Shown here: in pieces, positions 1,784-18,725 of the stretch
How positions within the stretch are numbered: the stretch's first letter is position 1
Layout of the letters: every line of letters starts with the position of its first letter
Source: a virus
DNA: 20,434 nt
IMG/VR virus record: IMGVR_UViG_3300031758_000712
Location: 1 to 20,434 of that record
Strand: one strand, 5' to 3'
The notes under the pieces: generated by a model
Told to the model about the DNA's origin: nothing
The model's input: only the letters and a program-made list of their open reading frames with translations
Databases searched by the model: none
Program-made: the position numbers and the translations under genes

Positions 1784-4762
1784 ATGGCAGAAAATAAATT
1801 AACGGTTTGGCAGAGGTTAGGGAAAGTATTTGGTCCGACATCCACATTGGATCAACAATCACCTGTGTTTAAATTTGATAAGAAACAACTATTAAAAACA
1901 ACAGATAAAAATGAGTTTGAAAGGGAGAAACTTGAAGCCCAACAAACCATGTATATTGGTAAACAATGGCAGAAGGTTGAGAGTAATTTATACCAACAAG
2001 CGGTGTACTATGAACCAACCAGAATGGCTTCATATTATGATTATGAGGCCATGGAGTACTCAATCCATGGGGACACCAAAATTGCCACTCCTGATGGTTT
2101 TATGACCATAAAAGAGCTTTCAGACAAGGGTAGAGATTATGAATTTATAACATACGCTTATGACCATAATTTGAAAAAAGTAGTACCAGCAATCGCCAGA
2201 AATGCTCACTATACCAGAGATGAAATGGCTTATAAAATTACGTTTGATGATGGGTCACATATTATCGCAACTTATGGTCATAGGTTCTTAAAAAGGGATG
2301 GTGTTTTTTGTGAGGTTGAAAACCTTAAACCGGGGGATTCAATGATGCCATTTTATAGAAAATCTTTTTACAATAATCAAAATTACCATTGGGTTTATAC
2401 TTGTAATTCAAACGAGGGTCATCATGGTTGGATATCTGAACACAATTTAATTGCGGAGTGGTATTATAAAAGAAAAATTAATGAAGACGAAGAAGTTCAT
2501 CATAAAGATTTCAATGGTAAAAATAACAAACCGGAAAATTTACAAATAATGAATATTTCCGAACATAGAGCTTATCATGCGAGATTAAACAACGAAAAAT
2601 TATGGGCAAACCCCGAATATAGACAAAAAATGTCTGAAGTTGCTAGAAGAACCGGTAAGTATAGTTGGGAAGGGAAAAGAGCTAAAGAGAATAATCCGGC
2701 ATATATAAAATTATCATTTGATTTGATTGTTGAAAAAGCAAGAGAACATAGAACGTTAATGGAAACTGCCACCTCACTTGGTGTTTCATTTAGAAAAATA
2801 CAGAATGAACTTAGATTCAATGGGTTTAAAAATTGGTTTGATTTTTTGGATGTTTATGGAATTGATAAAAGTAATAGTGATACTTACGGTGAAAAAAACA
2901 ATAACTTCAAAAAAATCGCTTGGGATTTATTAATTGAAATTGCTAGACAAGAAAATAGTATTACAAATACGGCCAAAAGATTGAATGTAAGTAGAAATAA
3001 AATTTTAAAAACAATAAAAGAAGGGGGATTTAATAATTGGATTACATTTTTGGAATCATATGGTATTGAAAAATCAAAACACCACCACCCAAAAAATGAA
3101 GAACCAGTTATTAATCACAAAATAGTATCAATTGAACCATATGGTGTTGTACCAGTTTATGACTTAACTGTGCCGGGTTATAAGAACTTCGCTACAGATA
3201 CCATTTTCTCACACAATACACCTGAGATCTCTGCCGCTCTTGATATTTACTCTGAAGAATCCACCACTCCTGACCAAGACGGACACATTTTAAAAGTCTA
3301 CTCTGAATCAAAAAGAATTAAACAAGTATTGGTTGATTTGTTTGTAAATAGACTTGATATAAACACCAATTTACCGATGTGGACAAGAAACACTTGTAAA
3401 TTTGGCGACAATTTCACATATTTAAAGTTAGACCCAGAAAAAGGGGTTGTTGGGTGTCAACAATTACCAAATATCCAAATTGAAAGATTGGAAAAGGGAA
3501 TGAGATTTCAACCGGACAAATATTCACAAGAAATGGAAAACGATGCTTTGAAATTTGTTTGGAAAGAAAAAAATATGGAGTTCAATACGTGGGAAATTGC
3601 CCACTTTAGAATACTTGGAGATGACCGAAAATTACCTTATGGGACATCTATGTTGGAGAAGGCTAGACGTATATGGAAACAGCTCCTTTTATCGGAAGAT
3701 GCGATGATGATTTACCGGGTATCAAGAGCACCAGAAAGAAGGGTATTTAAAGTATTTGTCGGAAATATGGATGACAAAGATGTTGATTCATATGTACAAC
3801 GTGTGGCAAACAAATTTAAAAGAGATCAGATTGCGGACCCTAAAACTGGAAATGTGGATATGAGATACAACCAATTGGCCGTAGATCAAGATTACTTTAT
3901 CCCGGTTAGAGACCCTTCCCAAACCAATCCAATTGAAACATTGCCGGGTGGTACAAACTTAGCCGAAATTGCTGATATTGAATATATCCAAAAGAAACTG
4001 GTAACTGCCCTTAGAATACCAAAGGCGTATTTAGGTTTTGAAGAAGCAGTAGGTAATGGACAAAACTTATCTTTACTTGATATTAGATTTGCAAGAACAA
4101 TCAACAAAATTCAAAAATCAATGTTGGCCGAACTTAATAAGATTGCCATTATTCATTTATTTTTATTAGGGTTTGAAGATGAACTAACAAACTTTACGTT
4201 GGGGTTACACAATCCATCAAAACAATCCGAACTTCTTTCATTGGAATTGTGGAAAGAAAAAATTGAATTATACAAAAATGCGGTAGCTGAAATCGCAAAT
4301 TCGGTTGCACCAACCTCAGCTTCTTGGGCTAAAAAGAATATTCTAGGTTTCTCAGATGAGGAGATCAGATTGGATTTACAACAACAACGAATTGAAAGGG
4401 CTGTTGCAGCTGAACTTGCTAAAACACCTGAAGTCATTACAAAAACTGGATTGTTTGATAATATTGATCAATTATATGGTAAAAAACCAGGTGAACCGGC
4501 AGGTGAAGCACCAGAAGGTGGAGAAGAACCTGGAGGAATGCCACCAATGGGTGGAGGATCTGAACTAGGAGGACCACCCCCACCACCGGGACCAGAACCA
4601 GGAGGTGAAGTAGGAGTAACACCAGAATCAACCAAGAAAAATGATTTAAATTTAATTCTGGAAGATAACTTATATTATGGTAAAACCTCTCTTGATTTAT
4701 CAAAGGGTAGATTAACCATTAATGAAATTGATGACAAATTAAAAGATTTATTGGATAAGTGA
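1784..4762 (+). CDS. Portal protein (T4 gp20-like) precursor containing an intein
   Basis: This forms the ring at the head vertex through which DNA is packaged and ejected. The 992-residue precursor comprises an N-extein (residues 1-92), a 386-residue intein (93-478) and a C-extein (479-992); splicing would leave 606 residues (T4 gp20 has 524). The junction falls in the conserved segment reading MEY then TPEISAALDIYSEE. Recognisable portal segments in the C-extein are the region around GDDRKLPYGTSMLEKARRIWKQL and the stretch RIPKAYLGFEEAVGNGQ. The extra length is partly a Gly/Pro/Glu-rich low-complexity stretch (bases about 4480-4620) before a short helical end. Start ATG 1784 has the AAAATTATG context common in this window. 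Position directly after terminase supports the call. A homologue alignment would settle extein boundaries; I am confident in both portal and intein. Confidence 0.93.
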   Translation: MAENKLTVWQRLGKVFGPTSTLDQQSPVFKFDKKQLLKTTDKNEFEREKLEAQQTMYIGKQWQKVESNLYQQAVYYEPTRMASYYDYEAMEYSIHGDTKIATPDGFMTIKELSDKGRDYEFITYAYDHNLKKVVPAIARNAHYTRDEMAYKITFDDGSHIIATYGHRFLKRDGVFCEVENLKPGDSMMPFYRKSFYNNQNYHWVYTCNSNEGHHGWISEHNLIAEWYYKRKINEDEEVHHKDFNGKNNKPENLQIMNISEHRAYHARLNNEKLWANPEYRQKMSEVARRTGKYSWEGKRAKENNPAYIKLSFDLIVEKAREHRTLMETATSLGVSFRKIQNELRFNGFKNWFDFLDVYGIDKSNSDTYGEKNNNFKKIAWDLLIEIARQENSITNTAKRLNVSRNKILKTIKEGGFNNWITFLESYGIEKSKHHHPKNEEPVINHKIVSIEPYGVVPVYDLTVPGYKNFATDTIFSHNTPEISAALDIYSEESTTPDQDGHILKVYSESKRIKQVLVDLFVNRLDINTNLPMWTRNTCKFGDNFTYLKLDPEKGVVGCQQLPNIQIERLEKGMRFQPDKYSQEMENDALKFVWKEKNMEFNTWEIAHFRILGDDRKLPYGTSMLEKARRIWKQLLLSEDAMMIYRVSRAPERRVFKVFVGNMDDKDVDSYVQRVANKFKRDQIADPKTGNVDMRYNQLAVDQDYFIPVRDPSQTNPIETLPGGTNLAEIADIEYIQKKLVTALRIPKAYLGFEEAVGNGQNLSLLDIRFARTINKIQKSMLAELNKIAIIHLFLLGFEDELTNFTLGLHNPSKQSELLSLELWKEKIELYKNAVAEIANSVAPTSASWAKKNILGFSDEEIRLDLQQQRIERAVAAELAKTPEVITKTGLFDNIDQLYGKKPGEPAGEAPEGGEEPGGMPPMGGGSELGGPPPPPGPEPGGEVGVTPESTKKNDLNLILEDNLYYGKTSLDLSKGRLTINEIDDKLKDLLDK
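2060..3217 (+). other. In-frame intein with HNH homing endonuclease and two HTH repeats, inside portal
   Basis: This is a self-splicing protein element of 386 residues. It begins with Ser1 (S-I-H-G-D-T-K-I-A-T, the block A pattern with Ser instead of the commoner Cys). Block B has the TxxH signature, TYGH, at residues 71-74. The C-terminal blocks are VYDLTVPGYKNF (367-377) and FSHN (383-386), with the canonical penultimate His and last Asn. The +1 extein residue is Thr. Between the splicing halves is an HNH-type nuclease: VHHKDFNGKNN at 146-156, PENLQIM at 158-164, and His169/His173. Two tandem copies of a helix-turn-helix unit follow (about 218-268 and 287-337), each ending NW-x-x-FL-[DE]-x-YGI-[DE]-KS; these presumably read the homing site. 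No sign of decay: frame and splice residues are intact. Inserting in an essential, conserved portal segment is typical of homing elements. Confidence 0.93.
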
Positions 4763-5514: not shown

Positions 5515-5771
5515 GTAAATTTATAAAATCATTGTTGGGTTCCGGAACACAAACGTTATCATCAAAAAGATTTGTTGGGATTTTGTGTGTACTATCACTA
5601 ATCACGGCTTTATTCATTTCCTTATTCTCAAAAGGTAAATTTTGTCCCAATGATGGTATTGTTGACGTTATCGGTTTACTTGCGTTTGGTACACTTGGTT
5701 TAACTTCAACTGAATCTATTTTTGGAAAAAAATATGACAACAAAAAAAGTAACGATCAAGAAGAAATTTGA
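5511..5771 (+). CDS. Small two-helix membrane protein, holin-like
   Basis: An 86-residue protein with two predicted membrane segments, FVGILCVLSLITALFISLF (about residues 21-39) and GIVDVIGLLAFGTLGL (about 49-64). A short polar loop with one Cys separates them, and the tail is strongly charged (KKYDNKKSNDQEE). The pattern SSKR before helix 1 and a charged Lys/Asp/Glu end resembles small holin-like proteins in many phages, so a role in inner-membrane permeabilisation is possible; a prohead membrane anchor is an alternative because of the head-gene setting. The start ATG overlaps the preceding stop as ATGA. Its last 16 bases overlap the 3' end of the convergent bS21 gene. Confidence 0.7.
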   Translation: MSKFIKSLLGSGTQTLSSKRFVGILCVLSLITALFISLFSKGKFCPNDGIVDVIGLLAFGTLGLTSTESIFGKKYDNKKSNDQEEI

Positions 5772-5944
5772 TTTTTTTGTTTGTACTGTGCTTTCTTTTT
5801 TTCTTCTCTTTTAATTACAGACGGTTTTACAAATTCCTTTCTTTCTTGAAGTTGTTGAATTTGTTTTGTTTTGGAAACCTTAAACTTATATTGTTTAAGT
5901 GCTTGCTCCAATGATTTTTCATTTTTAACGGGAATAATTATCAT
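5756..5944 (-). CDS. rpsU: Ribosomal protein bS21, phage-encoded
   Basis: A 62-residue basic protein of the small ribosomal subunit, which sits near the 3' end of 16S rRNA and affects mRNA start-site selection. Residues follow the Bacteroidota bS21 pattern closely: MIIIPVKNEKSLEQALKQYK, then KTKQIQQLQER, then FVKPSVIKREEKKKAQY. Length matches the family (about 60-70). It is the only minus-strand gene in the head-gene block, transcribed against its neighbours and overlapping the 3' end of the upstream membrane-protein gene by 16 bp. It has its own ATATTTAT box 18 nt before the ATG (5963-5971), which supports it as a real gene. bS21 homologues are known in some phage genomes and, in Bacteroidota, bS21 helps hide the anti-Shine-Dalgarno sequence; a role in biasing host ribosomes towards phage mRNA is inference. 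Confidence 0.88.
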   Translation of the reverse strand: MIIIPVKNEKSLEQALKQYKFKVSKTKQIQQLQERKEFVKPSVIKREEKKKAQYKQKNQISS

Positions 5945-8000: not shown

Positions 8001-9041
8001 ATGAAAAAAATAGTAAGATTAACAGAATCGGATTTAACAAGAATAATTAAACGCGTTATTTCCGAACAAACTCAAGGTGAAAGTGGATTTATCCAAACAA
8101 TAGTTGATAAATATAACATTTCAGATGAGTTGAGAAATGAAATTATAAATACTATTAAAAATTCTGAGTGTAAAAATATTACGTTTGAAAAACTTAAAAT
8201 GGGTGATGGATTGGCCTTAGGTGATAAGTTAATTTTAACCCCAAGGACATTAGAGAACACTTTGGGTAGATTCTTATTTATTTTATTTCACGAATTGGCA
8301 CACCAATACCAATTTAAAAAATATGGAATGGAAAAAATGCTTGAATTATATAGTGATGAAATGGATTTAAAAGAAGCCGCACAATTTATGAAACAAGTTG
8401 AAAGTGTGGCGGATGAATTTGCTGTAAGAAAATTAAAAAACCTAGAAAGAAAAGGATTAATTACACCATCAAGATCCGATATGTTTAAAGGTTATGACGG
8501 TATTTCGTTAGAAAGATTGGAAATAATGATTGATATGTTTAGAAATCAATTAAGGAAAAGTAACATTACTGGCGCTAAAAATATTAGTGAGTTTTTATAC
8601 AATATGGTTAAAATTGAACAAACAAACCCACAAGTAAATTCTGAAAAACAAAAACCTTCTGAAATCACACCAACTGAAATAAAAAAAGAAATGAATAAAG
8701 AAAATAGTACAATCAGTGCCGATGAAGTATATTATGAAATTCCAAAAGGTATAAAAAAAGTTGTTGGTAATTTAGATGCTTCGTCAATGGAAGATTTTAA
8801 TGATGTTGAAGTTATAGATGGTAATTTAACTGTTAATAGTGATAAAATCAAATCACTACAAAATATTAAAACTATAAATGGTAAACTTTGGGTTTATGGT
8901 AACAATTTTGAAGACTTTGGTAATTTAAAAACGGTAAAAGGGGATGTAACATTGACTAAAAATACACCATTATTGGATATGTATACTGAAGATGAAATTA
9001 AAGGAATGATTAATATTGGAGGAAACTTACAAATAAAATAA
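8001..9041 (+). CDS. HExxH zinc metalloprotease with capsid-targeting-like leader and beta-repeat tail
   Basis: A 346-residue predicted zinc peptidase. Residues 1-22 are a basic amphipathic leader, TESDLTRIIKRVISE|Q, shared almost exactly with the next gene. The catalytic motif FHELAHQ gives His97, Glu98 and His101. The downstream VESVADEFA (133-141) supplies Glu134 as likely third ligand, a gluzincin-like arrangement seen in minigluzincin/SprT-type peptidases. After a Lys/Glu/Pro linker (about 205-245), residues 250-346 form regular strand repeats (VVGNLDASSMEDFNDVEVIDG, then NLTVNSDKI, IKTINGKLWVYGNNF, TVKGDVTLTKN), as in leucine-rich or receptor-L-like beta-solenoids of Bacteroidota. No signal peptide. 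The leader and the ISE|Q site suggest it is loaded into the head and trimmed by the prohead protease; substrate unknown. Confidence 0.85.
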   Translation: MKKIVRLTESDLTRIIKRVISEQTQGESGFIQTIVDKYNISDELRNEIINTIKNSECKNITFEKLKMGDGLALGDKLILTPRTLENTLGRFLFILFHELAHQYQFKKYGMEKMLELYSDEMDLKEAAQFMKQVESVADEFAVRKLKNLERKGLITPSRSDMFKGYDGISLERLEIMIDMFRNQLRKSNITGAKNISEFLYNMVKIEQTNPQVNSEKQKPSEITPTEIKKEMNKENSTISADEVYYEIPKGIKKVVGNLDASSMEDFNDVEVIDGNLTVNSDKIKSLQNIKTINGKLWVYGNNFEDFGNLKTVKGDVTLTKNTPLLDMYTEDEIKGMINIGGNLQIK

Positions 9042-9053
9042 TTAAATAATATT

Positions 9054-9431
9054 ATGAAAAAAGTAATTAAATTAACAGAATCGGATTTAACTCGTATTGT
9101 TAAACGAGTAATCCAGGAAGTAAACGATGAATTTGACGATGATTCAGTTATTGACAATAATTTCAATCAAGAAGAATATGATGAATTATTGGACCAAGCG
9201 AGGGAATTTTTATGTCGTGAAATTGGTTTAGAAGAAGATGAGGTTTACAATATGAGTGATGACCAAATTATTGGTGAAATTAAATATTATGATAAAGGTT
9301 TATATCGTAGATTAGAAGAACTGAAATATAGTAAACCTGTTGATTTAGATGAACCATACGATTCAATTGGTGGGTATTCAGTAAATGATTTGAGAAGAAC
9401 TTTTAAAAATTATAAATACGACAAAAAATAA
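9054..9431 (+). CDS. Small acidic protein with the same leader as the metalloprotease
   Basis: A 125-residue protein whose residues 1-22, ending TESDLTRIVKRVIQE|V, match the metalloprotease leader at nearly all positions. After it the sequence diverges completely: an acidic helical body (DEFDDDSVIDNNFNQEEYDE, LEEDEVYNMSDDQIIGEI) with one Cys and a basic end (RRTFKNYKYDKK). I do not recognise the body. It starts 12 bp after the metalloprotease stop, so the two are probably co-transcribed, and ends at tandem terminators. Duplicate leader with unrelated body suggests a sorting tag rather than an enzymatic domain. Confidence 0.82.
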   Translation: MKKVIKLTESDLTRIVKRVIQEVNDEFDDDSVIDNNFNQEEYDELLDQAREFLCREIGLEEDEVYNMSDDQIIGEIKYYDKGLYRRLEELKYSKPVDLDEPYDSIGGYSVNDLRRTFKNYKYDKK

Positions 9432-9456
9432 ACAATATTGAGTAATAAAATAATGT

Positions 9457-9482
9457 AATCCACCATAAAAGGTGGATTTTTT
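9457..9482 (+). terminator. Rho-independent terminator, first of tandem pair
   Basis: Arms AATCCACC (9457-9464) and GGTGGATT (9471-9478) around a 6-base loop, with the T run ending at 9482. It lies 25 bp after the stop at 9431. Confidence 0.88.
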
Positions 9483-9496
9483 GTATCTAATAATTG

Positions 9497-9525
9497 GGGA
9501 ATATCAAAAAATATTCCCTTTTTTT
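9497..9525 (+). terminator. Rho-independent terminator, second of tandem pair
   Basis: Arms GGGAATAT (9497-9504) and ATATTCCC (9511-9518) around loop CAAAAA, then seven Ts. Tandem terminators here insulate the scaffold/capsid unit from upstream read-through. Confidence 0.85.
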
Positions 9526-9565
9526 ATATTAAATCCACATTTTTTTAACTTTTTTCAAAGTGACG

Positions 9566-9574
9566 CATATTTAT
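9566..9574 (+). promoter_or_regulatory. ATATTTAT box, candidate promoter of scaffold-capsid unit
   Basis: CATATTTAT, 41 bp after the tandem terminators and 43 nt before ATG 9618. Something must start transcription between the terminators and the scaffold gene, and this box is the best candidate. Confidence 0.5.
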
Positions 9575-9617
9575 TAGGAAAAATAAACTTTTTATAAGGC
9601 AAATATTGCAAAATTTT

Positions 9618-10994
9618 ATGGAAAAAAATAAATCTGTAGTTGAACAAGCTTTATTGCAAATGAAAGCAATAGAAGAGGCTATCAGTGAAAATGCAAAAGG
9701 AATACTTGCTTCTACCATGAAGGAAGAAATCGCAGAACTAGTAAAAGAATCCTTAAAGGAAAAAACTAAACTTACCGAACAAGATGAAGAAGATTCAGAA
9801 ATGGATGTAGAAATGGAAGACGATATGGAGGTTGAAGATGAAACAGGTGATGTTGAATTTGATGCTGAAATGGAAGATGAAGGTGAGGATGATTCAGAAA
9901 TGTTAGATATGGATTTTGACATGGAAGATGATAACGAGGATGAACTACCTCCACTTGACTTAACTCAAGCTTCAGCTGATGAGGTTTTGAGAGTATTTAA
10001 GGCAATGGGTGATGAAGATGGTATCATTATTAAAAAACAAGATGATGGTGACATCCACTTGGTTGATAACAATAATGACACTGAGTATTTAATCACATTT
10101 GGTGGTGAGTCGGCAGAAGCGGAATCTATGAATATGATGGAAAATTATATGGACGAAGAAGAAATGGATGAATCTTGGTCTGAAGAAATGGATGAAGAGG
10201 AAATGGATGAAGAAGAAATGGACGAAGAAGAAATGGACGAAGAAGAAATGGACGAAAACGTTTATGAAATTGATCAAGAAACTTTGGAATCTGTTTTAGA
10301 ATCATTCAAAGCTAAAGGAGTTGGAATGGGTAAACCTGGTTCAGGTATGAGCAAAACATCTGTTAACATGAAGGGTTTTAAAGAAGAAAAGAAATCCGGA
10401 GGTAAAGGTGTTGGAATGGGTAAACCAAATTTCAAATATCCTTCAAAAATGAAAGGTGGAGTAACTGAAACTGAAACTGACGAAATGGAAGAAGCCGAAA
10501 CAACTGAAGCTTCAAGAACTTTAGGTAGTGGAAGAAAGTGGGGAAGAAAAGGTTTACCAAAACCAAAGGCAGCCCCAAGACACCTTGAAGTTGAATCAAT
10601 TCAAAGTGAATTAAACTTGTTAAGAGAAAAGAATGAAGAATACAAAAAAGCATTGGACTTTTTGAGAAAGAAAATGGACGAGGTTGCTGTATTTAATTCT
10701 AATCTAGCGTACGCAACAAGATTGTTTACTGAACATTCAACAACAAAACAAGAAAAAATAAATGTACTTAGAAGATTTGACAATGTTGAAACAATCAAAG
10801 AATCTAAGACACTTTACAAAACAATTAAAGATGAGTTATCCAATGAGACAACAAGTCAATCAATTACTGAAAGTGTACAACAAAAAGTAGTTAAGACTCC
10901 TCAAAACGGATCATCAACAAATTTAATTGAAAGTAAAACGTATGAAAATCCTCAATTTATGAGAATGAAGGATTTGATGACAAAAATAAAATAA
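9618..10994 (+). CDS. Prohead scaffold/core protein (T4 gp22 position)
   Basis: A 458-residue, very acidic protein immediately upstream of the major capsid gene, where T4 has its main scaffold gp22. ATG 9618 is preferred over an in-frame TTG at 9606 because of its TTTTATG context. Residues about 55-220 are Glu/Asp/Met-rich with five EEMDE repeats; a Gly/Lys-rich stretch with GVGMGKP twice follows. The C-terminal third is helical coiled coil, with VAVFNSNLAYATRLFTE then KINVLRRFD and TIKESKTLYKTIKDEL, a pattern I associate with scaffold proteins of T4-like phages. Several (I/L)xE sites (ISE|N, LTE|Q, ITE|S, LIE|S) fit degradation by the prohead protease. Function is assigned from position, composition and the C-terminal pattern. 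Confidence 0.8.
   Translation: MEKNKSVVEQALLQMKAIEEAISENAKGILASTMKEEIAELVKESLKEKTKLTEQDEEDSEMDVEMEDDMEVEDETGDVEFDAEMEDEGEDDSEMLDMDFDMEDDNEDELPPLDLTQASADEVLRVFKAMGDEDGIIIKKQDDGDIHLVDNNNDTEYLITFGGESAEAESMNMMENYMDEEEMDESWSEEMDEEEMDEEEMDEEEMDEEEMDENVYEIDQETLESVLESFKAKGVGMGKPGSGMSKTSVNMKGFKEEKKSGGKGVGMGKPNFKYPSKMKGGVTETETDEMEEAETTEASRTLGSGRKWGRKGLPKPKAAPRHLEVESIQSELNLLREKNEEYKKALDFLRKKMDEVAVFNSNLAYATRLFTEHSTTKQEKINVLRRFDNVETIKESKTLYKTIKDELSNETTSQSITESVQQKVVKTPQNGSSTNLIESKTYENPQFMRMKDLMTKIK
10182..10256 (+). repeat. Five tandem 15-bp units encoding EEMDE
   Basis: Unit GAAGAAATGGAYGAA, five in-frame copies within the scaffold gene; the copies differ at third codon positions, and the last three are almost identical. 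Likely to vary in copy number between relatives by slippage. Confidence 0.9.
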
Positions 10995-11030
10995 ATAAAC
11001 AATAAACTCAAATTTAAAAAACTAGAAAAA

Positions 11031-12851
11031 ATGGGAGCATTATTAGATTCAGGTCTTGTTGGTAACATCGGTTTAAAACACCTTAAAGTTATCAAAGAAG
11101 ATACTATTAACAAATGGGATAAATTAGGATTCCTAGACGGTCTTAAAGGACATATTAAAGAGAACATGGCTCAATTATATGAGAACCAAGCATCTCACCT
11201 AATTAACGAAGCGGCAGCAACTGATAGTTCAGGTTCTTTTGAAACTGTAGTATTCCCTATCGTAAGAAGAGTATTCTCTAAGTTGTTGGCTAACGACATC
11301 GTATCAGTACAAGCTATGAACTTACCAATCGGTAAATTGTTCTACTTTGTACCTAAAATCCAAGGGTATACAACTGCTAACCCTACAACTAACGGTATAC
11401 ATAACCAACCAATTGGAGCACCAGGTTCAACTGCGAACGTAGGTACTGGTTACAATGATGGTACTCAGTATGCTAAAAATCTTTATGATTTATTTTACGA
11501 AGGAGCTGAAGCGGCTTTAGATCCTCCAGGATTGTTTGATTACTCTAAAGGTGAGTGGACAGCGGTTACTGCTTCTAACGTAACTACTGTTGCTTGGTCT
11601 AACGGTACATTGGTTGCTAACGAAACATCTTACGAAACTTCAGGTGTAAGAAAAATGATTATTAAAGTTGGTGGTTTCGCAAGTGCTGGTGTTGGTAAAT
11701 TAATCGGACCAGACGGAAACGAAATTGACAACGAATCATTCCTTTCTGACCTTAAAGTTATCAAAGGTGCTGGTTTAGTTCTTGACCCAGCTTCACCTTG
11801 TGCTGTTCCTGCTAACACACCATTATTATTTAGAGTTGTTACTCAACAATATGGTAAAGGAATTGTTGCTCCAACATCTACTTCTACTCAAGCCACTTGG
11901 CCGGGTACTGGTAATGATGGTTTTTATGACAATATTTGTTCTCAAGACGGATTTATCTATTTAGAAGTTGACCTTTCTTGTCCTGCATGTGTTGATTGTG
12001 GTGCTACTACACTTGATGGTTACACAGGTGCTACTGTTTCTGCTGTAACTTCTGGTACTGCATTTACTGTAACATACAAGAGATACAAAGAAATGGAATT
12101 TGAAGATAGAATCGGTGAAGTTTCTTTTGACCTTGAGTCAGTTACTGTATCTGTTACAGAAAGAAAACTAAGAGCTCAATGGTCTCCAGAATTAGCACAA
12201 GACGTTTCAGCGTTCCATAACATTGATGCTGAAGCTGAATTGACAGCTTTATTGTCTGAGCAAGTTGCTGCTGAAATTGATAGAGAAATCCTAAGAGACC
12301 TTAGAAAAGGTGCTGCTTGGAACCTAAGATGGGATTACAACGGATGGAGAAGAATTCAACAAACAACTTCTTACACTCAAAAAGATTGGAACCAAACTTT
12401 GATTACAGCAATCAACCAATTGTCTGCACAAATCCACAAATCTACTTTAAGAGGTGGTGCAAACTGGATTGTTGTTTCTTCTGAGGTTTCTGCAATCTTT
12501 GATGACCTTGAGTACTTCCACGTATCAAATGCTTCTCCGGAGCAAGATCAATACAACATGGGTATTGAAAGAGTTGGTACATTAGCAGGAAGATACCAAG
12601 TGTATAGAGATCCTTACTTCCCAGCTAACCAAATCCTTATCGGACACAAAGGTTCTTCTTTGTTAGATACTGGATATGTTTATGCTCCGTATGTGCCTCT
12701 ACAATTAACACCTACAATGTATAATCCATTTAATTTTACTCCAATTAAGGGGATTATGACAAGATACGCGAAGAAAATGGTGAACAACAGATTTTACGCG
12801 AGAATTACTGTTGACGGTGTTAGAACGTTTGATTTACAAGAATTGAGATAA
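11031..12851 (+). CDS. Major capsid protein (T4 gp23-like)
   Basis: The shell protein of the head, 606 residues (T4 gp23 521). Family landmarks: FPIVRRVFSKLLANDIVSVQAMNLPIGKLFYFVPK (about 75-109); SVTERKLRAQWSPELAQDV (about 372-390); HNIDAEAELTALLSEQVAAEIDREIL (from 393); and a C-terminal region with GRYQVYRDPYFPANQILIGHKG. The N-terminal 60 residues form a delta domain ending LINE|AAAT, which matches the T4 gp23 cut (LTE|A after residue 65) in sequence and place, so mature protein probably begins at Ala61. Residues about 150-350 are a beta-rich insertion with Cys at SPCAV, NICSQDG and SCPACVDCG, accounting for the extra length. Codon use (many GCT, TCT, AAC codons) differs from neighbours, as expected for the most highly expressed gene. 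A strong terminator follows. Confidence 0.95.
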   Translation: MGALLDSGLVGNIGLKHLKVIKEDTINKWDKLGFLDGLKGHIKENMAQLYENQASHLINEAAATDSSGSFETVVFPIVRRVFSKLLANDIVSVQAMNLPIGKLFYFVPKIQGYTTANPTTNGIHNQPIGAPGSTANVGTGYNDGTQYAKNLYDLFYEGAEAALDPPGLFDYSKGEWTAVTASNVTTVAWSNGTLVANETSYETSGVRKMIIKVGGFASAGVGKLIGPDGNEIDNESFLSDLKVIKGAGLVLDPASPCAVPANTPLLFRVVTQQYGKGIVAPTSTSTQATWPGTGNDGFYDNICSQDGFIYLEVDLSCPACVDCGATTLDGYTGATVSAVTSGTAFTVTYKRYKEMEFEDRIGEVSFDLESVTVSVTERKLRAQWSPELAQDVSAFHNIDAEAELTALLSEQVAAEIDREILRDLRKGAAWNLRWDYNGWRRIQQTTSYTQKDWNQTLITAINQLSAQIHKSTLRGGANWIVVSSEVSAIFDDLEYFHVSNASPEQDQYNMGIERVGTLAGRYQVYRDPYFPANQILIGHKGSSLLDTGYVYAPYVPLQLTPTMYNPFNFTPIKGIMTRYAKKMVNNRFYARITVDGVRTFDLQELR

Positions 12852-12870
12852 TCAATATCTTTAGAATAAG

Positions 12871-12900
12871 AAAAAGGTCAGAGAAATCTGACCTTTTTTT
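12871..12900 (+). terminator. Strong rho-independent terminator after capsid gene
   Basis: Twelve-pair stem AAAAAGGTCAGA (12871-12882) with TCTGACCTTTTT (12887-12898), a GAAA tetraloop, and a T run to 12900. The A-tract/T-tract symmetry may let it work in both directions. Confidence 0.92.
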
Positions 12901-12931
12901 ATTAACCTATTTACAATAATCATTTCTACGT

Positions 12932-12940
12932 TATATTTAT
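12932..12940 (+). promoter_or_regulatory. ATATTTAT box abutting HNH endonuclease start
   Basis: TATATTTAT only 5 nt before ATG 12946, downstream of the capsid terminator. If it is a -10 element, the mRNA would be leaderless or nearly so. Confidence 0.45.
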
Positions 12941-12945
12941 ATTAT

Positions 12946-13626
12946 ATGAAAAAGATAATAATTGATGATGAAACACAAAAAGAAATTGTTAGACTGTATA
13001 ATGATGAAATGTTAGGTAGCCCATCTATTTCTGAAAAACTAAACATCCCTAAACATATAATATTAAGAGTCCTTAAAGAAAATAACGTTAAAGTTGGTGT
13101 ACCTGGTATGAAATATAAAGGTGGTAAAAGCGCATCATATAAAAGAAATTATCATAAATATAAAGATAAAAAATCACAATACCATAAAGAATGGTCAGAA
13201 AAGAATAGAGACCGTTTAAATGAGTATCATAGGGACTGGAGGGACGAAAATAGAGATAAATGGAGAGAAAATAAAAGACTATATCAAAAAAAACGTAAAG
13301 ATAGTGACCCCCTCTATAAATTAATCAGTAATTTCAGAACCGCAATTTACCAAGTACTTAAAGAAAGTAATGTTGAAAAAAATGGACGTTATTTTGAAGT
13401 TTTAAATTATTCAGCTCAAGACCTTATCACACATCTTGAAAAACAATTTAAGGATGGTATGAATTGGGAGAATTATGGTAAATGGCATGTTGACCATATA
13501 TTACCAATTTCATCTTTTGATATTAAAGAAATAGGAGATGAGGAATTTATGAAATGTTGGTCATTAGAAAATCTTCAACCATTATGGGGTCGTGACAATC
13601 TTATAAAATCAAATAATATTTTGTAA
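12946..13626 (+). CDS. Free-standing HNH homing endonuclease
   Basis: A 226-residue DNA nuclease. An N-terminal helix-turn-helix (SPSISEKLNIPKHIILRVLKENNV, about 25-48) is followed by a very basic linker rich in Lys, Arg, Tyr and His (about 58-120, with YHKEWSEKNRDR and YHRDWRDENRDK as imperfect repeats). The C-terminal HNH core is WHVDHILPISSFD (His181, Asp183, His184), then WSLENLQPLWGRDNLIKSN (Asn209, Asn218). The gene sits right after the capsid terminator with its own promoter-like box, the arrangement of mobile homing endonuclease genes beside conserved structural genes in T4-like phages. Its target is probably in or near the capsid gene of relatives lacking it; this is inference. Confidence 0.88.
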   Translation: MKKIIIDDETQKEIVRLYNDEMLGSPSISEKLNIPKHIILRVLKENNVKVGVPGMKYKGGKSASYKRNYHKYKDKKSQYHKEWSEKNRDRLNEYHRDWRDENRDKWRENKRLYQKKRKDSDPLYKLISNFRTAIYQVLKESNVEKNGRYFEVLNYSAQDLITHLEKQFKDGMNWENYGKWHVDHILPISSFDIKEIGDEEFMKCWSLENLQPLWGRDNLIKSNNIL

Positions 13627-13678
13627 ATAAGGTCATCAATTAGGTGTAAAATTGAATGGATTATAAATTTATTTTTTG

Positions 13679-13687
13679 TATCTTTAT
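13679..13687 (+). promoter_or_regulatory. TATCTTTAT box abutting Vsr-like endonuclease start
   Basis: TATCTTTAT, one base different from the common TATATTTAT box and still fitting TAnnTTTAT, ends 3 nt before ATG 13691. Confidence 0.35.
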
Positions 13688-13690
13688 GGT

Positions 13691-15397
13691 ATGAAAACTA
13701 CCCTATCTAATGATGATATTTTGGAGATCATTTCTTTATATCAAAATCAAATTCCCAGTACTCATAAATTGGCCGAAAAGTTTAAAGTTGGTCACAAGAA
13801 AATATCTCAAATTTTAAAAGACCATAATGTTGAGGTCAACAAAAAGGGTGGTCAAATTAAAACAGGACAAACAACTGAAATAGAAATCAACAAAACAAAA
13901 AAATACATACCAACAGATAATACCATTCTGGTTGCAAAATGTAAAAAAACGAACATTACTATTAATGACCCTAATAATTTATCCGGTAAATTAACAAAAC
14001 ATATTATTGAACATTATGGTGATGTAAATATACCCCAAAATAATTACCAACGAAAAAAATATGAACTTGAACATAACAAAAAATGGTTTGAGGGGTATTT
14101 TGATATTATAAGTGAAGAAAAAAAACAAATAAGAAAATGTTCTTTATGTGAATGGGAAACTAGTGATATAAATAATAAAACTGGTTGTTTTGAACAACAT
14201 ATTATAAAAACACATAATCTCACAATGAGTCAATATCTTGATCAATTTCCGACAGAATATGTGTTTCATCCAAATACCATTAAAAAAAATGAATTAAATA
14301 AAAAAGAAAATGTTGTTTTTTGTCAAATTTGTAATGAAAAAATGAAATCAATTACAAATACCCATCTAAAAAACAAACACAATATGGATATTGAACAATA
14401 TAAGTTAAAATTTCCAAATTCAAAAATAGTATCTGAAACAACATCCAAGAAATTAAGTGAAAGTACAAAATTATTAAACCAAACATTGGAACCCACTTGG
14501 ACATCAAAAGGTGAATCCGAAATTAAAGAATTTTTGGAAACATTAGGGTTTGATGTTGTTAAAGGAAAAAATAGAAAAATATTGGAAGGTAAAGAAATTG
14601 ACTTGGTAATACCCAGTTTAAAAATTTGTTTTGAATATGATGGTTTATATTATCACACCGAAAAAATGGGTAAGGATTCAAAATACCATCTAAATAAAAC
14701 TATTGATTGTTCTCTTATGGGTTATAAATTATATCACATTTATGAAGATGAATGGGTTAAGAATAAGGAACTTGTCAAAAATAAAATTAGACATATCCTA
14801 AATAAAAGTGAGGGAACAAAAATTGGTGCCAGACAAGTAAAAATAAAAAACATAACAAAAGAAGAAAAAACCAGATTTCTGGATAATTTTCACATACAAG
14901 GTAATGACAAATCTGATGTCTATTATGGGGCGTTTTTTGGTGATGTTATGGTTGGTATTATGACCTTTAATAAAAAAAGAAATATGACCAAAACGCAAGA
15001 TGGGGAATTTGAGTTATCAAGATATTCAACAAATTCTGGGTTTGTTGTTAATGGGTTGGCCTCAAAGTTTCTTAAAGTGTTTATAAATGATTATAACCCA
15101 AAACAAATCATTAGTTTTGCCGATAGGAGGTGGACCGTTAATCCGGATAATAATTTATATACAAAACTTGGGTTTGAATTAACATCAATTGTTAAACCAT
15201 CTTATTATTACTATAGTTCAAAAATCAACAAATATAAAAGGTTTCATAAATTTTCTATGGGTAAAAATAATTTGAAAAGAAGGTATCCGGATCTTGATTT
15301 CACCAAATCCGAATCACAATTAACCGAAGAACTTGGTTTTGATAAAATATGGAATTGTGGGTTATTTAAGTATGTTTTGGATTTAAATGAAAAATAA
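13691..15397 (+). CDS. Vsr-like (PD-(D/E)xK superfamily) homing endonuclease with HTH and zinc fingers
   Basis: A 568-residue nuclease. ATG 13691 is chosen over an in-frame TTG at 13676, which would lie in the promoter-like sequence. Order of parts: helix-turn-helix (STHKLAEKFKVGHKKISQILKDHNV, about 23-47); finger CSLCEW...H...H (Cys150, Cys153, His170, His175); second finger CQIC...H...H (Cys211, Cys214, His225, His230), each followed by a similar Y-x-x-x-FP segment; then the nuclease core SKGESEIKEFLETLGF, EIDLVIPSLKICFEYDGLYYH (Asp304, Glu315, Asp317, His322) and IYEDEW. This matches Vsr-like EDxHD homing endonucleases such as I-Bth0305I. The C-terminal 190 residues (FADRRW, LYTKLGFE, IWNCGLFKYVL) form the GNAT-like domain often attached to these phage nucleases. 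It lies in tandem with the HNH gene upstream. Confidence 0.9.
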   Translation: MKTTLSNDDILEIISLYQNQIPSTHKLAEKFKVGHKKISQILKDHNVEVNKKGGQIKTGQTTEIEINKTKKYIPTDNTILVAKCKKTNITINDPNNLSGKLTKHIIEHYGDVNIPQNNYQRKKYELEHNKKWFEGYFDIISEEKKQIRKCSLCEWETSDINNKTGCFEQHIIKTHNLTMSQYLDQFPTEYVFHPNTIKKNELNKKENVVFCQICNEKMKSITNTHLKNKHNMDIEQYKLKFPNSKIVSETTSKKLSESTKLLNQTLEPTWTSKGESEIKEFLETLGFDVVKGKNRKILEGKEIDLVIPSLKICFEYDGLYYHTEKMGKDSKYHLNKTIDCSLMGYKLYHIYEDEWVKNKELVKNKIRHILNKSEGTKIGARQVKIKNITKEEKTRFLDNFHIQGNDKSDVYYGAFFGDVMVGIMTFNKKRNMTKTQDGEFELSRYSTNSGFVVNGLASKFLKVFINDYNPKQIISFADRRWTVNPDNNLYTKLGFELTSIVKPSYYYYSSKINKYKRFHKFSMGKNNLKRRYPDLDFTKSESQLTEELGFDKIWNCGLFKYVLDLNEK

Positions 15398-15460: not shown

Positions 15461-15469
15461 TATATTTAT
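15461..15469 (+). promoter_or_regulatory. ATATTTAT box, candidate promoter of surface-protein unit
   Basis: TATATTTAT overlaps an inverted TATAAATA (15469-15476), so the 15461-15476 block is nearly symmetrical. It precedes the GC-rich leader and lies 83 nt before ATG 15553. Confidence 0.45.
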
Positions 15470-15475
15470 ATAAAT

Positions 15476-15528
15476 ACTCAGCCGGCCCATGGTAGATGGG
15501 GGTTTCCTTATGGTCTCTACAAGTGAGT
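15476..15528 (+). promoter_or_regulatory. GC-rich leader with potential stem structure
   Basis: A locally GC-rich island in otherwise very AT-rich DNA. ACTCA (15476-15480) can pair with TGAGT (15524-15528), and inside this GTAGA (15492-15496) can pair with TCTAC (15516-15520). A competing hairpin CCCAT/ATGGG occurs at 15486-15500. It would be the 5' part of the leader for the gene at 15553. No match to a named riboswitch is apparent; function unknown. Confidence 0.35.
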
Positions 15529-15552
15529 GTAAAAAAAATTAAAACAATTATA

Positions 15553-17550
15553 ATGAAAAATGTTTTTATGTTTATTTTTACATTGTTAATTTCATTCGGA
15601 TATTCCCAATGTAACCAATACTTTATATATGAGAGTTTCTCAACAGCATTGCCTACACAACAAGGGACATGGATAAATACTTCTGTTTTATATGGCACCA
15701 CAGCAGCAACTGCTAGAACAGGAGCAAATTATCTTACATTCAATGCCCTCAATGATGCAATCCGTTTACCCCAAGTATCAAATCCAGGTGTATTAACATT
15801 TTATTATAGAAGAAGTTCAACATCAACTGGTACTCCAAAATTTTCAGTAGAAACATCCCTAAATGGTACAACTTGGACAGAACGTTTAGCAGTAACAACT
15901 TTTTCCACTACATATGCTTTAGCATCTGTTGATATAGGTGTATTAGGATTAACTAATGTTCATATTAGAATTATTGATAAACGTGCTTCGGGTACAGCTG
16001 AACGTTATATTGATGATTTGGGGTTAACATCTACCACTACAAGTTCAAATACATTAATGCCATTCTTGAGCTCATGTAGTTCAACATTAAACTCATCTTT
16101 TACATATTCAATATGTGATGATACAGGACCGCAAGGAACGGGTTTAGGTGGTTATACTAATAATGTTAGTAGAACAGTAACATTAACCCCTTCAGATAAT
16201 ACAAAACGTTTAAGACTTACATTTTCCCATTTAGATTTAGAAACCAGTTATGACTATTTGTATGTATATGATGGAGCAAACACATCAGCAACATTACTAG
16301 CTACACTTAATGGAACAACAACACCCTCAAATATAACTGCTACGAATGCTTCAGGTCAACTTACATTACTTTGGACAACAGATGTTTCAAATGTTGGGAC
16401 ATGGGGTGGATTTTTAGCTACAGTAACATCTATTACTTTACCAATCCCAACATGTATTTCATCACCAACAACTCCAACGGATGGTGCTACTAACATTGGA
16501 TTAACCCCAACATTAAGTTGGCCATCTGCTACCCATGCCACTACTTATGACGTTTATTTTGGAACAACATTACCTTCAACCCCAACAACAAATACTTCTT
16601 TAACATCATATTCACCAGGGACATTATTAACAGGAACAACATATTATTGGAAAATAGTACCTAAAAATTCAGTAGAGGCAACTCCTAGTGGATGCAACAC
16701 TTGGTCTTTCACAACATTCACACCACCTTCAAATGATGATCCTAGTGGAGCAACTCAATTAACTGTAAATAGCAGCATAACATATTCAACATATACAAAT
16801 TTATATTCTACAAATACCACAACAGAATCTACGCCATCATGTGCTTCATATACAGGTGAGGATGTTTGGTTCAAAGTAACAGTTCCACCATGGAATGTAA
16901 ATACCCTAGAATTTGATACACAAACTGAAGATATTACAGATGGGGGGATGACAATTTATAGAGGAACTATTGGTTCGTTAACTGAAATTGAATGTGATGA
17001 TGATGATAGTCCAAATGGATTAATGCCATATATTACTAGATCGGATTTTGTGGCCAATGAAACAATTTACATCCGTTTTTGGGAATATGGGGGTGGAACA
17101 ACGGGTACGTTTAAACTTTCAGTATCAACAAACCAACCTTTACCTGTTGAACTTACTCTTTTTGATGGAATACCTTACCCTTTATTTAATGTTATTAAAT
17201 GGACAACGGCTTCTGAACATAACTCAAGTTATTTTGATCTAGAAAATAGTTTTGATGGTGAGAATTGGAAAATGATATCAAAAGTAAAATCCGCCGGAAA
17301 TTCAACAACCGAACAAAAATACTCATTTATTGATTATAATCAACATCCTTTAAGTTATTATAGATTACAACAATATGATATTGATGGTCAATTTAAAACA
17401 TATGGGCCGATTGTGGTGACAAAAAGTGTTGGTGACAAAAAAGTTGTTAAGTATATAAATTTACTTGGTCAAGAAATTAATCCAGATGAAACAAGTGGTG
17501 TTGTTATTGAAATTTATGAAGATGGGTCTATAAGAAAAATGATAAGATAA
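15553..17550 (+). CDS. Secreted multidomain surface protein with T9SS-like C-terminus
   Basis: A 665-residue exported protein. ATG 15553 is chosen over 15496 because it starts a clean signal peptide (MKNVFMFIFTLLISFGYS then Q) with a TATAATG context. Parts by eye: a lectin/MAM-like beta-sandwich (about 24-160); a CUB-like domain (about 170-290, with FSHLDLETSYDYLYVYDG and WGGFLATV); a fibronectin III domain (about 297-385, TPTLSWPSATHATTYDVYFG, TTYYWKIVPKN); and a PPC-like beta domain (about 392-512, EDVWFKVTVP, IECDDDDS). A C-terminal region LPVELTLFDG...IKWTTASEHNSSYFDLENSFDG...YYRLQQYDIDG and a final INLLGQEINPDE...VVIEIYEDGS follow. The last region is the pattern of T9SS cargo in Bacteroidota, so the product would be shown on or released from the host surface. 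It is probably host-derived. It heads a tight three-gene unit. Confidence 0.85.
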   Translation: MKNVFMFIFTLLISFGYSQCNQYFIYESFSTALPTQQGTWINTSVLYGTTAATARTGANYLTFNALNDAIRLPQVSNPGVLTFYYRRSSTSTGTPKFSVETSLNGTTWTERLAVTTFSTTYALASVDIGVLGLTNVHIRIIDKRASGTAERYIDDLGLTSTTTSSNTLMPFLSSCSSTLNSSFTYSICDDTGPQGTGLGGYTNNVSRTVTLTPSDNTKRLRLTFSHLDLETSYDYLYVYDGANTSATLLATLNGTTTPSNITATNASGQLTLLWTTDVSNVGTWGGFLATVTSITLPIPTCISSPTTPTDGATNIGLTPTLSWPSATHATTYDVYFGTTLPSTPTTNTSLTSYSPGTLLTGTTYYWKIVPKNSVEATPSGCNTWSFTTFTPPSNDDPSGATQLTVNSSITYSTYTNLYSTNTTTESTPSCASYTGEDVWFKVTVPPWNVNTLEFDTQTEDITDGGMTIYRGTIGSLTEIECDDDDSPNGLMPYITRSDFVANETIYIRFWEYGGGTTGTFKLSVSTNQPLPVELTLFDGIPYPLFNVIKWTTASEHNSSYFDLENSFDGENWKMISKVKSAGNSTTEQKYSFIDYNQHPLSYYRLQQYDIDGQFKTYGPIVVTKSVGDKKVVKYINLLGQEINPDETSGVVIEIYEDGSIRKMIR

Positions 17551-18012
17551 ATGTTAAAATGGGATATATTTGAAAGGTTGTTTACATCGGGTTTAGCTAT
17601 GTTACAACCTTTTATTATTTATATGACCATTGGTGATCAATTTGCCATTTCACACTCCTGGAACACATCTTTACAACCCCTATTCATAATCACAAACGCC
17701 CTTGTTAGTTTTTTCTTTTTTAAATTGGAGAAATGGAGAATTCCAGCTTTACTTCTTTTGTTATTGACGGCATTCCCGGTTTGTGACTATTTTTGGTTAC
17801 ACAATATTTTTGCCATATTATTTTTTATATTTTCTGGTATTTCATTGTGGTCAATTAAAAGGATGAGGTATTACTTTTTCATATTTTTATGTTCACTTAT
17901 TTTTATTTTTAATGGGTTATTTTGGTCGGAAACGTTTGGGATTATAACCCTCGCAACCTATCACTTACATTTATTATTGTACAGATATTTATTAAGTAAG
18001 AAAAGACACTAA
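17551..18012 (+). CDS. Polytopic membrane protein, unknown
   Basis: A 153-residue, mostly hydrophobic protein with about five membrane segments: LAMLQPFIIYMTIG (about 16-29), PLFIITNALVSFFFF (43-57), IPALLLLLLTAFPVCDYFW (64-82), IFAILFFIFSGISLW (86-100) and YYFFIFLCSLIFIFNGLFW (107-125), with a basic end KKRH. Aromatic residues are very abundant. I do not recognise a family. Its ATG directly follows the TAA of the surface-protein gene and its stop overlaps the next ATG (TAATG), so all three genes are probably translated from one message. A role beside the exported protein in the envelope (for example exclusion of other phages) is possible but unproven. Confidence 0.8.
   Translation: MLKWDIFERLFTSGLAMLQPFIIYMTIGDQFAISHSWNTSLQPLFIITNALVSFFFFKLEKWRIPALLLLLLTAFPVCDYFWLHNIFAILFFIFSGISLWSIKRMRYYFFIFLCSLIFIFNGLFWSETFGIITLATYHLHLLLYRYLLSKKRH
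17984..17992 (+). promoter_or_regulatory. ATATTTAT box inside upstream gene
   Basis: GATATTTAT lies in the 3' end of the membrane-protein gene, 19 nt before ATG 18012. It could give separate late expression of the downstream gene; being inside a coding region, it is a weaker copy. Confidence 0.25.
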
Positions 18013-18725
18013 TGGATATTAAAAAAATAATAGAGGAAGTTTTAAATGAGGTAAATTCAAGTAGGTACGCTGGTTCCTATAACGGACCATTAACGATGGG
18101 TGAGATTGATTGGAAAAAAGAAACATTAGGTCCTTTTACCACAAAAGTTTCTGATTTTTTTAATGCTGAACTTCAATATGATAGTTATGATGGGTCATTA
18201 GATTCACATAAGAAAGATAGAAAAAAATTGGAGGCTAAATCAAAAAAAATATCAAAATACAATAAAACCCACCATCAGTTAAATGATGATGATGGTAATC
18301 CGATTAATCCAACACCCGGTAAAGGTCAGAAAATCGTTCCAATAGTTAGAGAATGGGTTGAGTTAGATGAAATATCATTAACTGAAGATTTGGCTGTTTG
18401 GTTTGGGAAAAAGAAAAAACCAAAAGGTTCTTCACAACCAAAAGGTCCGTGGGTTAATATCTGTAGAAAAGTTGATGGTAAACATCCCCCTTGTGGTAGA
18501 CCAGATACCAGTAAGGGTGGTTATCCAAAATGTAGAGCTGCCGGTGTTGCTGGAAAAATGAGTGATTCTGAAAAAAGGTCAGCTTGCCAACAAAAAAGAA
18601 AAGCTGAGAAAAAAGACACACAAACAGGTAAAGGTCAAAAACCGGTTATGGTTTCCTACAAACCAAAAAAGACTCAAAATGAGTCTTTGGATATTTTAAT
18701 ACAACAAATATTATCGGTTATTTAA
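18012..18725 (+). CDS. Basic Cys/Lys-rich domain protein with capsid-targeting-like leader
   Basis: A 237-residue protein in three parts. Residues 2-13, DIKKIIEEVLNE|V, are the same motif as in the metalloprotease leader. A polar middle (about 15-120) has no recognised fold. The C-terminal module (about 121-205) reads SLTE|DLAVWFGKKKKPKG, then WVNICRKVDG, PPCGRPD, YPKCRAAG, MSDSEKRSACQQKRKAEKK. That order (L.xWF.K, WV, CGR, YPKC, M[ST]xxE+xSA, RK) matches a small basic domain I recall from phages and giant viruses (DUF6321-like), from memory only. LTE|D just before the module is a second possible prohead-protease site that would free a very basic peptide, as with T4 internal proteins. Its ATG overlaps the upstream stop. 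It faces the minus-strand HNH gene tail to tail. Confidence 0.82.
   Translation: MDIKKIIEEVLNEVNSSRYAGSYNGPLTMGEIDWKKETLGPFTTKVSDFFNAELQYDSYDGSLDSHKKDRKKLEAKSKKISKYNKTHHQLNDDDGNPINPTPGKGQKIVPIVREWVELDEISLTEDLAVWFGKKKKPKGSSQPKGPWVNICRKVDGKHPPCGRPDTSKGGYPKCRAAGVAGKMSDSEKRSACQQKRKAEKKDTQTGKGQKPVMVSYKPKKTQNESLDILIQQILSVI

Follow-up and report, generated by a model that had tools for sequence, protein, structure and literature searches.

Why should a phage head module encode a protein built like a substrate of the type IX secretion system (T9SS)? The question was raised by a sequence-only reading of a complete virus record, IMGVR_UViG_3300031758_000712, which we call the window (the whole stretch of DNA that was analysed, 20,434 bases). 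We argue below that the cargo gene likely encodes a phage-borne substrate of the T9SS of its host.

Gene context and domain build of the cargo protein

The window carries a T4-like head module in the order terL, portal gp20 with an intein, prohead protease, scaffold-like protein, gp23, two endonuclease-like genes and the cargo gene, and the module that holds the cargo gene is conserved across phage relatives. With three homing-type endonuclease genes in the window, the structural and homing-nuclease setting that had been read from the letters was confirmed. The portal gene (1784–4762, +) is split by an intein with an HNH-type endonuclease, and the copies in loci L018 and L020 are intein-free. 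The features used in this section are as follows:

11031–12851 (+), major capsid protein gp23 (PF07068, 251.5 bits)
15553–17550 (+), T9SS-type cargo gene, 665 aa, ATG start at 15553
15553–15609 (+), Sec signal peptide MKNVFMFIFTLLISFGYSQ (simple h-region test)
16198–16389 (+), CUB domain, residues 216–279 (Pfam PF00431, 26.9 bits, gathering cut-off 21.4)
16441–16728 (+), FN3-like domain, about residues 297–392 (AlphaFold strands; homologous stretch in L029 and L031)
16732–17133 (+), PPC/galactose-binding-like domain, about residues 394–527 (weak GBD_T9SS_assoc match, 14 bits)
17140–17424 (+), LPVEL...YYRL linker domain, Ig/FN3-like, residues 530–624
17437–17547 (+), putative short C-terminal sorting domain (mini-CTD) KKVVKYINLLGQEINPDETSGVVIEIYEDGSIRKMIR, residues 629–665 (three predicted beta-strands)
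17551–18012 (+), 153-aa multi-TM protein of no known family
18012–18725 (+), conserved phage protein phrog_727, whose ATG overlaps the TM-gene stop by one base

The domain build proposed from sequence alone, consisting of a signal peptide, CUB, FN3-like and PPC-like domains and an LPVEL linker pattern, was recovered, with the CUB domain above its cut-off and the remaining domains more weakly matched. Among the window's 19 genes, the cargo gene was the only one in which the simple h-region test found a signal peptide. An alternative in-frame ATG at 15496, inside the leader region, is not favoured as its start. Foldseek searches with the full cargo model returned CUB (cubilin, enteropeptidase) and FN3/Ig matches, and those with the C-terminal model returned generic Ig/FN3 matches only. 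AlphaFold modelled the last 136 residues with a mean pLDDT of 87 and the tail as three strands. The PPC-like part is about 50% identical to Crocinitomicaceae proteins, and bacterial proteins with the same linker mostly end in canonical type A C-terminal domains (CTDs).

The cargo stop directly adjoins the ATG of the TM gene, as it also does in L005 and L183; the TM gene adjoins the cargo gene in divergent order in L011 and L021, giving two arrangements among phages. The TM gene had no match in Pfam, PADLOC or host-family genomes. Elsewhere, the window encodes a homologue of ribosomal protein bS21 (5756–5944, −; PF01165, 47 bits), and similar small ORFs were seen by eye in L014 (12002–12190) and L016 (5565–5753). 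Two different window proteins (8001–8060 and 9054–9113) open with a common tag, MKK(I/V)(V/I)(R/K)LTESDLTRI(I/V)KRVI, which may be a capsid-targeting or processing sequence and is absent from the cargo protein. A comparable repeated N-terminal tag (M-K-x-LKxYExF) occurs in the L008 contig.

The C-terminal tail in bacteria and phages

The C-terminus had been described as T9SS-type, and this description held for the linker pattern (LPVELTLFDG...WTTASE...YYRLQQYDIDG...NLLGQE) but not for the terminal 37 residues, which matched none of TIGR04183, PF18962 and PF13585. Profile comparison with hhalign and hmmsearch detected no homology between the tail and canonical type A CTDs, so we base the case for recognition by T9SS on where the tail lies, on its exchange and on its lineage. 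With respect to position, the tail occupies the same C-terminal place after the same linker as type A domains (TIGR04183/PF18962) and occurs on homologous phage and bacterial proteins, but it lacks their PNP (YPNP) motif and first strands and does not score. It was C-terminal in all 43 distinct bacterial proteins and all 65 distinct phage proteins, 64 of the latter also having the linker. With respect to exchange, the phage proteins of L005 and L008 are alike in passenger and linker types and end in a short tail (L005) versus a canonical FPNP-type CTD (L008), a contrast drawn from this one pair. The L008 protein scored 22 bits against Por_Secre_tail (cut-off 27), and a bacterial control also fell below at 26.8.

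The lineage evidence comes from searches of bacterial genomes with a model of the tail. Three individual genomes yielded 1, 4 and 4 proteins; across larger samples, the model matched 128 of 200 Crocinitomix-family (Crocinitomicaceae) genomes, with up to 23 copies per genome, 229 of 399 genomes at order level and 2 of 297 in a phylum-wide Bacteroidota sample. Genome G393, which was placed in the Crocinitomix family, has six short-tail matches. Signal peptides were found in 20 of 25 complete bacterial tail proteins, and among those that failed the test, at least two have a clear signal when read from another start codon. SprA (SprA_N), the T9SS translocon, was present in all 12 tail-bearing genomes tested.

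A short export signal is plausible in light of published work. In a deletion series, GFP export required the last 22 residues of HBP35, which hold motifs D and E (PMC3120885); a review terms these residues sufficient (PMC10202324). In Prevotella intermedia, the only species of the phylum reported with both kinds of CTD, short CTDs of 40–55 aa that are predicted to be three-stranded support cleavage and glycosylation (PMC11969387). The window tail has the three strands, conserved Gly and basic terminus by which those domains are recognized (PMC11969387). It differs in being 37 aa rather than about 40–55 aa long, in having GxV/GxI where the P. intermedia domains have GxY in motif D, and in occurring in Crocinitomicaceae and phages, and the two are likened by description, not by sequence. 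We therefore call the tail a short CTD as a working analogy and not as a statement of homology. It is apparently a short sorting signal that lies outside the T9SS profile models and is common in Crocinitomicaceae and their phages.

A C-terminus that matches no T9SS sorting profile had been named in advance as a refutation, and by that measure the window protein fails. The profiles did recognize several related phage proteins above their cut-offs, and the miss apparently reflects a short CTD that these profiles do not cover. The proteins above cut-off include a 2325-aa protein of L029, a 281-kb contig (TIGR04183, 28.9 bits, cut-off 23), and proteins of L268 and L270 (Por_Secre_tail, 29.1 and 30.9 bits, cut-off 27). 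At 10217–14565 (−) of L179, which is on the same contig as L008, a TonB-dependent receptor adjoins a Por_Secre_tail type A protein (44 bits, cut-off 27). The L008 contig further encodes a CHU_C type B protein (48.4 bits, cut-off 27) and a subtilase with a weak Por_Secre_tail match (19.6 bits). A bacterial origin of this contig, suggested by its many cargo genes and the TonB receptor, was rejected based on phage-like PHROG matches; terL and gp23 were sought in it and neither was found. Secreted subtilases also lie beside the cargo gene in L011 (8903–11266, −), L013 (9230–10699, −) and L183 (2344–3798, +), with a SprB-repeat protein in L011 as well. Their tails of about 36–43 residues, for example ending GYYFVVNNGIITKKIYKN, look like shortened type A CTDs.

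The cargo might be secreted by another route: Sec would export it to the periplasm or outer membrane, and the conserved tail would serve as a beta-strand signal for a system other than T9SS. This would fit the absence of detectable homology to type A CTDs, and what can be read from the sequence amounts to a signal peptide and a C-terminal tail. We consider such a route unlikely, given that the same linker bears canonical type A CTDs in many bacteria and in phage L008, that the leader RNA described below precedes cargo of either tail type and that short CTDs are known in P. intermedia (PMC11969387).

Phage relatives, promoter-like box and leader RNA

Scanning viral sequences with the whole cargo protein gave 30 loci, and scanning with a C-terminal alignment gave 197 viral contigs that encode relatives, far beyond chance. 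The claim of T9SS cargo in a phage genome is well supported. A linker-plus-tail model had one match in each record that holds the family. In many close relatives the cargo gene occupies the same slot after gp23, sometimes inverted. Huge phages in public records have such genes as well: the protein of LR745206 ends in a short tail and that of LR756500 in a canonical-looking CTD. In L026, a 145-kb phage contig, a GroEL-like gene (12786–14402, +) was noted by eye near the cargo gene.

Signal peptides were present in 58 of 61 complete phage relatives, the three misses being one frameshifted sequence, one truncated sequence and one evident signal with a non-ATG start. Based on BLAST coverage, the passengers form three large groups and several small ones, and Pfam identified CUB in 24, GEVED in 18 and fn3 in 7 of 53 phage relatives. 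Nearly all relatives retain the signal peptide and the tail around an exchanged middle.

In a tree of linker and tail, 63 of 64 phage rows formed one clade (support 99/95) apart from bacteria, on an alignment of few columns whose phage rows are the best matches to phage queries and thus a biased sample. The single row outside the clade, L176 from a 281-kb contig, seems to have been acquired separately. Across 84,980 bacterial and archaeal species, the best-matching proteins reached only about 34–52% identity and were no closer than the phage rows. Pairwise dN/dS over the full length was about 0.06–0.4 in informative pairs, with purifying selection covering the tail too, and the window tail is intact relative to bacterial ones. 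Because 63 of 64 tails form one clade and the gene is under purifying selection, these sequences argue for a long-resident phage gene and not a vestige.

If the cargo were a virion protein, such as a tail fibre or capsid decoration, its N-terminal hydrophobic segment and C-terminal motif would be incidental. The slot directly after gp23 is consistent with this, as are the Ig/FN3 domains, which are common on virions, the position of the L027 cargo near genes that appear baseplate-like by eye, and the Flavobacterium phage Immutovirus, where the slot holds an Ig-like repeat protein that has no signal peptide. Against it, the signal peptide and tail persist despite the swapped middle, bacterial secreted proteins share the tail and some phage relatives have canonical T9SS domains, which together make a virion role quite improbable.

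Two further features lie upstream of the cargo gene:

15462–15470 (+), promoter-like box ATATTTATA, consensus [AG]TATTTAT
15476–15530 (+), conserved structured leader RNA, 55 nt, between the box and the start codon (covariance model, 68.6 bits)

Of 64 stretches upstream of phage genes, 25 hold the form ATATTTAT, whereas none of 64 stretches inside the same genes and none of 64 on the other strand do. The form precedes the prohead protease in 5 of 5 cases, gp23 in 3 of 6 and the cargo gene in 5 of 9. Across 52 distinct loci, [AG]TATTTAT lies within 60 bases upstream of the cargo start in 34, with none antisense and a background of 1.4%, and the box also follows gp23 in the Flavobacterium isolate Immutovirus. 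We weighed the T4 late box TATAAATA in sense and set it aside, the enriched form being ATATTTAT on the coding strand. Judged by these patterns, the box resembles a phage promoter, and it may be a late one.

The alternative offered with the original reading, chance capture of a host gene whose sorting signal has decayed or goes unused, could draw on passenger domains that resemble Crocinitomicaceae proteins (the PPC-like part at about 50% identity) and on a tail that matches no T9SS model, but it is contradicted by the well-supported phage clade, purifying selection that includes an intact tail, the conserved signal peptide, the same slot in many phages and the phage promoter box upstream, and we regard it as very improbable.

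The exact core of the leader occurs in 35 viral contigs, and every readable ORF downstream of it looks secreted. When loci found by the covariance model were included, 28 of 30 distinct downstream N-termini passed the signal-peptide test; of the two that failed, one is cut after two residues and the other, L395, has an evident signal with no basic residue. The background at the same loci was 30 of 185 ORFs, some of these being cargo genes themselves. The 16 distinct long ORFs after an exact-core leader comprise 6 with canonical CTDs, 9 with short tails and 1 interrupted; adding the model-found L352, L306, L395 and L029 gives 8, 11 and 1, or a T9SS-type tail in 19 of 20, as called by eye from the C-termini. 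Six of the canonical ORFs scored 17.5 to 30.9 bits against Por_Secre_tail, two of them exceeding the cut-off. Two leaders were reached independently of the exact core: that of L029, which entered via its FN3 domain and has the leader ahead of its TIGR04183 cargo, and that of LR745206, which precedes a 117-aa secreted protein with an end resembling a CTD. The 436-kb viral contig L295 combines the leader and a 1729-aa cargo with a cluster of 11 tRNA genes (8010–9600, −).

Where the box is present, the leader starts 6–8 nt past TATTTAT in all cases but one, a spacing that fits a transcript beginning at or close to the leader. In the leader alignment, 98.7% of cells are paired and three pairs changed on both sides. 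Covariation exceeded that of all 500 shuffles and was much lower in slid versions. Since these are related sequences, found by a pattern search biased towards conserved ones, we take the covariation as support and not as proof. Single-sequence folding was no better than shuffles, and the structure therefore rests on comparison.

The covariance model found the leader in 4 of 84 sources searched, mostly cargo phage loci, and the leader therefore marks a subset of cargo loci. Two loose DNA patterns for further leaders gave mostly chance matches, and only seven more loci scored clearly with the model. None of 92 bacterial loci held the leader, and a strictly filtered search of 240 host-family genomes, run with no positive control, did not find it either. 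Like the cis-regulatory RNAs in Rfam, it is a structured 5' leader, but no Rfam family matched it above the gathering score in the window, L265, L268, L295 or L395; elsewhere in the window, Rfam gave two sub-threshold chance matches. The element could also act at the DNA level, for example as a recombination site that aids passenger exchange. On balance we lean slightly towards a cargo regulon in phages of Flavobacteriales-like hosts, in which a phage-specific, conserved and structured leader RNA, at the 5' end of the transcript and just past the promoter box, marks T9SS cargo genes, whatever their passenger or CTD, and sets the timing or strength with which phage proteins load the host's secretion system.

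Proposed mechanism and significance

If the cargo is a T9SS substrate, as we think likely, transcription would proceed from the promoter-like box common to head genes, and the cargo would presumably be expressed together with them from an mRNA that begins with, or very near, the structured leader. The Sec signal would take the protein into the periplasm, where the short CTD, in place of the usual seven-stranded type A CTD, would engage the host T9SS, whose parts include the PorV shuttle, the SprA/Sov translocon and the PorU sortase. Recognition of the short CTD by this machinery is our inference, and the host is probably a freshwater, Crocinitomicaceae-like member of the Bacteroidota. The CUB-FN3-PPC passenger would then reach the surface of the infected cell or the medium.

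Binding is the usual role of CUB, GEVED, FN3 and PPC-like domains. That the passenger changes while its slot stays fixed suggests that diverse surface targets are selected for, a pattern in keeping with adhesion, exclusion or dispersal. Our guess is that an adhesive, often swapped passenger remodels the infected-cell surface, either binding neighbours or polymer or blocking further adsorption. Taken singly, a block to further adsorption is a tentative proposal, and a role in adhesion or aggregation is equally tentative.

Phage T9SS cargo was thought to be novel when the locus was first read, but it had already been reported in Cryophage (Bellas et al. 2020, PMC7468147), and one cluster of gut phages has been described with T9SS sorting domains near head genes (PMC6949934). 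Cryophage likewise encodes proteins with T9SS C-terminal signals that vary among variants and are proposed to use the host machine, these being type A domains on endoglucanase, GH39 and PA14 passengers (PMC7468147). The present system differs in its short CTD, its phage clade spanning many contigs, the slot after gp23, the promoter box and, in some phages, the leader RNA. Immutovirus (MW353176) is also T4-like and has a Flavobacterium host, a similar gp23 neighbourhood and the TATTTAT box after gp23, but its slot protein, unlike the window cargo, has neither a signal peptide nor a CTD. As far as the open literature shows, preprints apart, the short-CTD phage clade, its Crocinitomicaceae-like link, the promoter box and the leader RNA are new.

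The leader RNA provides both a search handle for phage cargo genes and a regulatory element that can be tested. More broadly, these results suggest that dressing the host surface via T9SS is a habit of many Bacteroidota phages and not the curiosity of a single phage, a habit that would include a maintained signal, a swapped adhesive passenger and regulation of its own.
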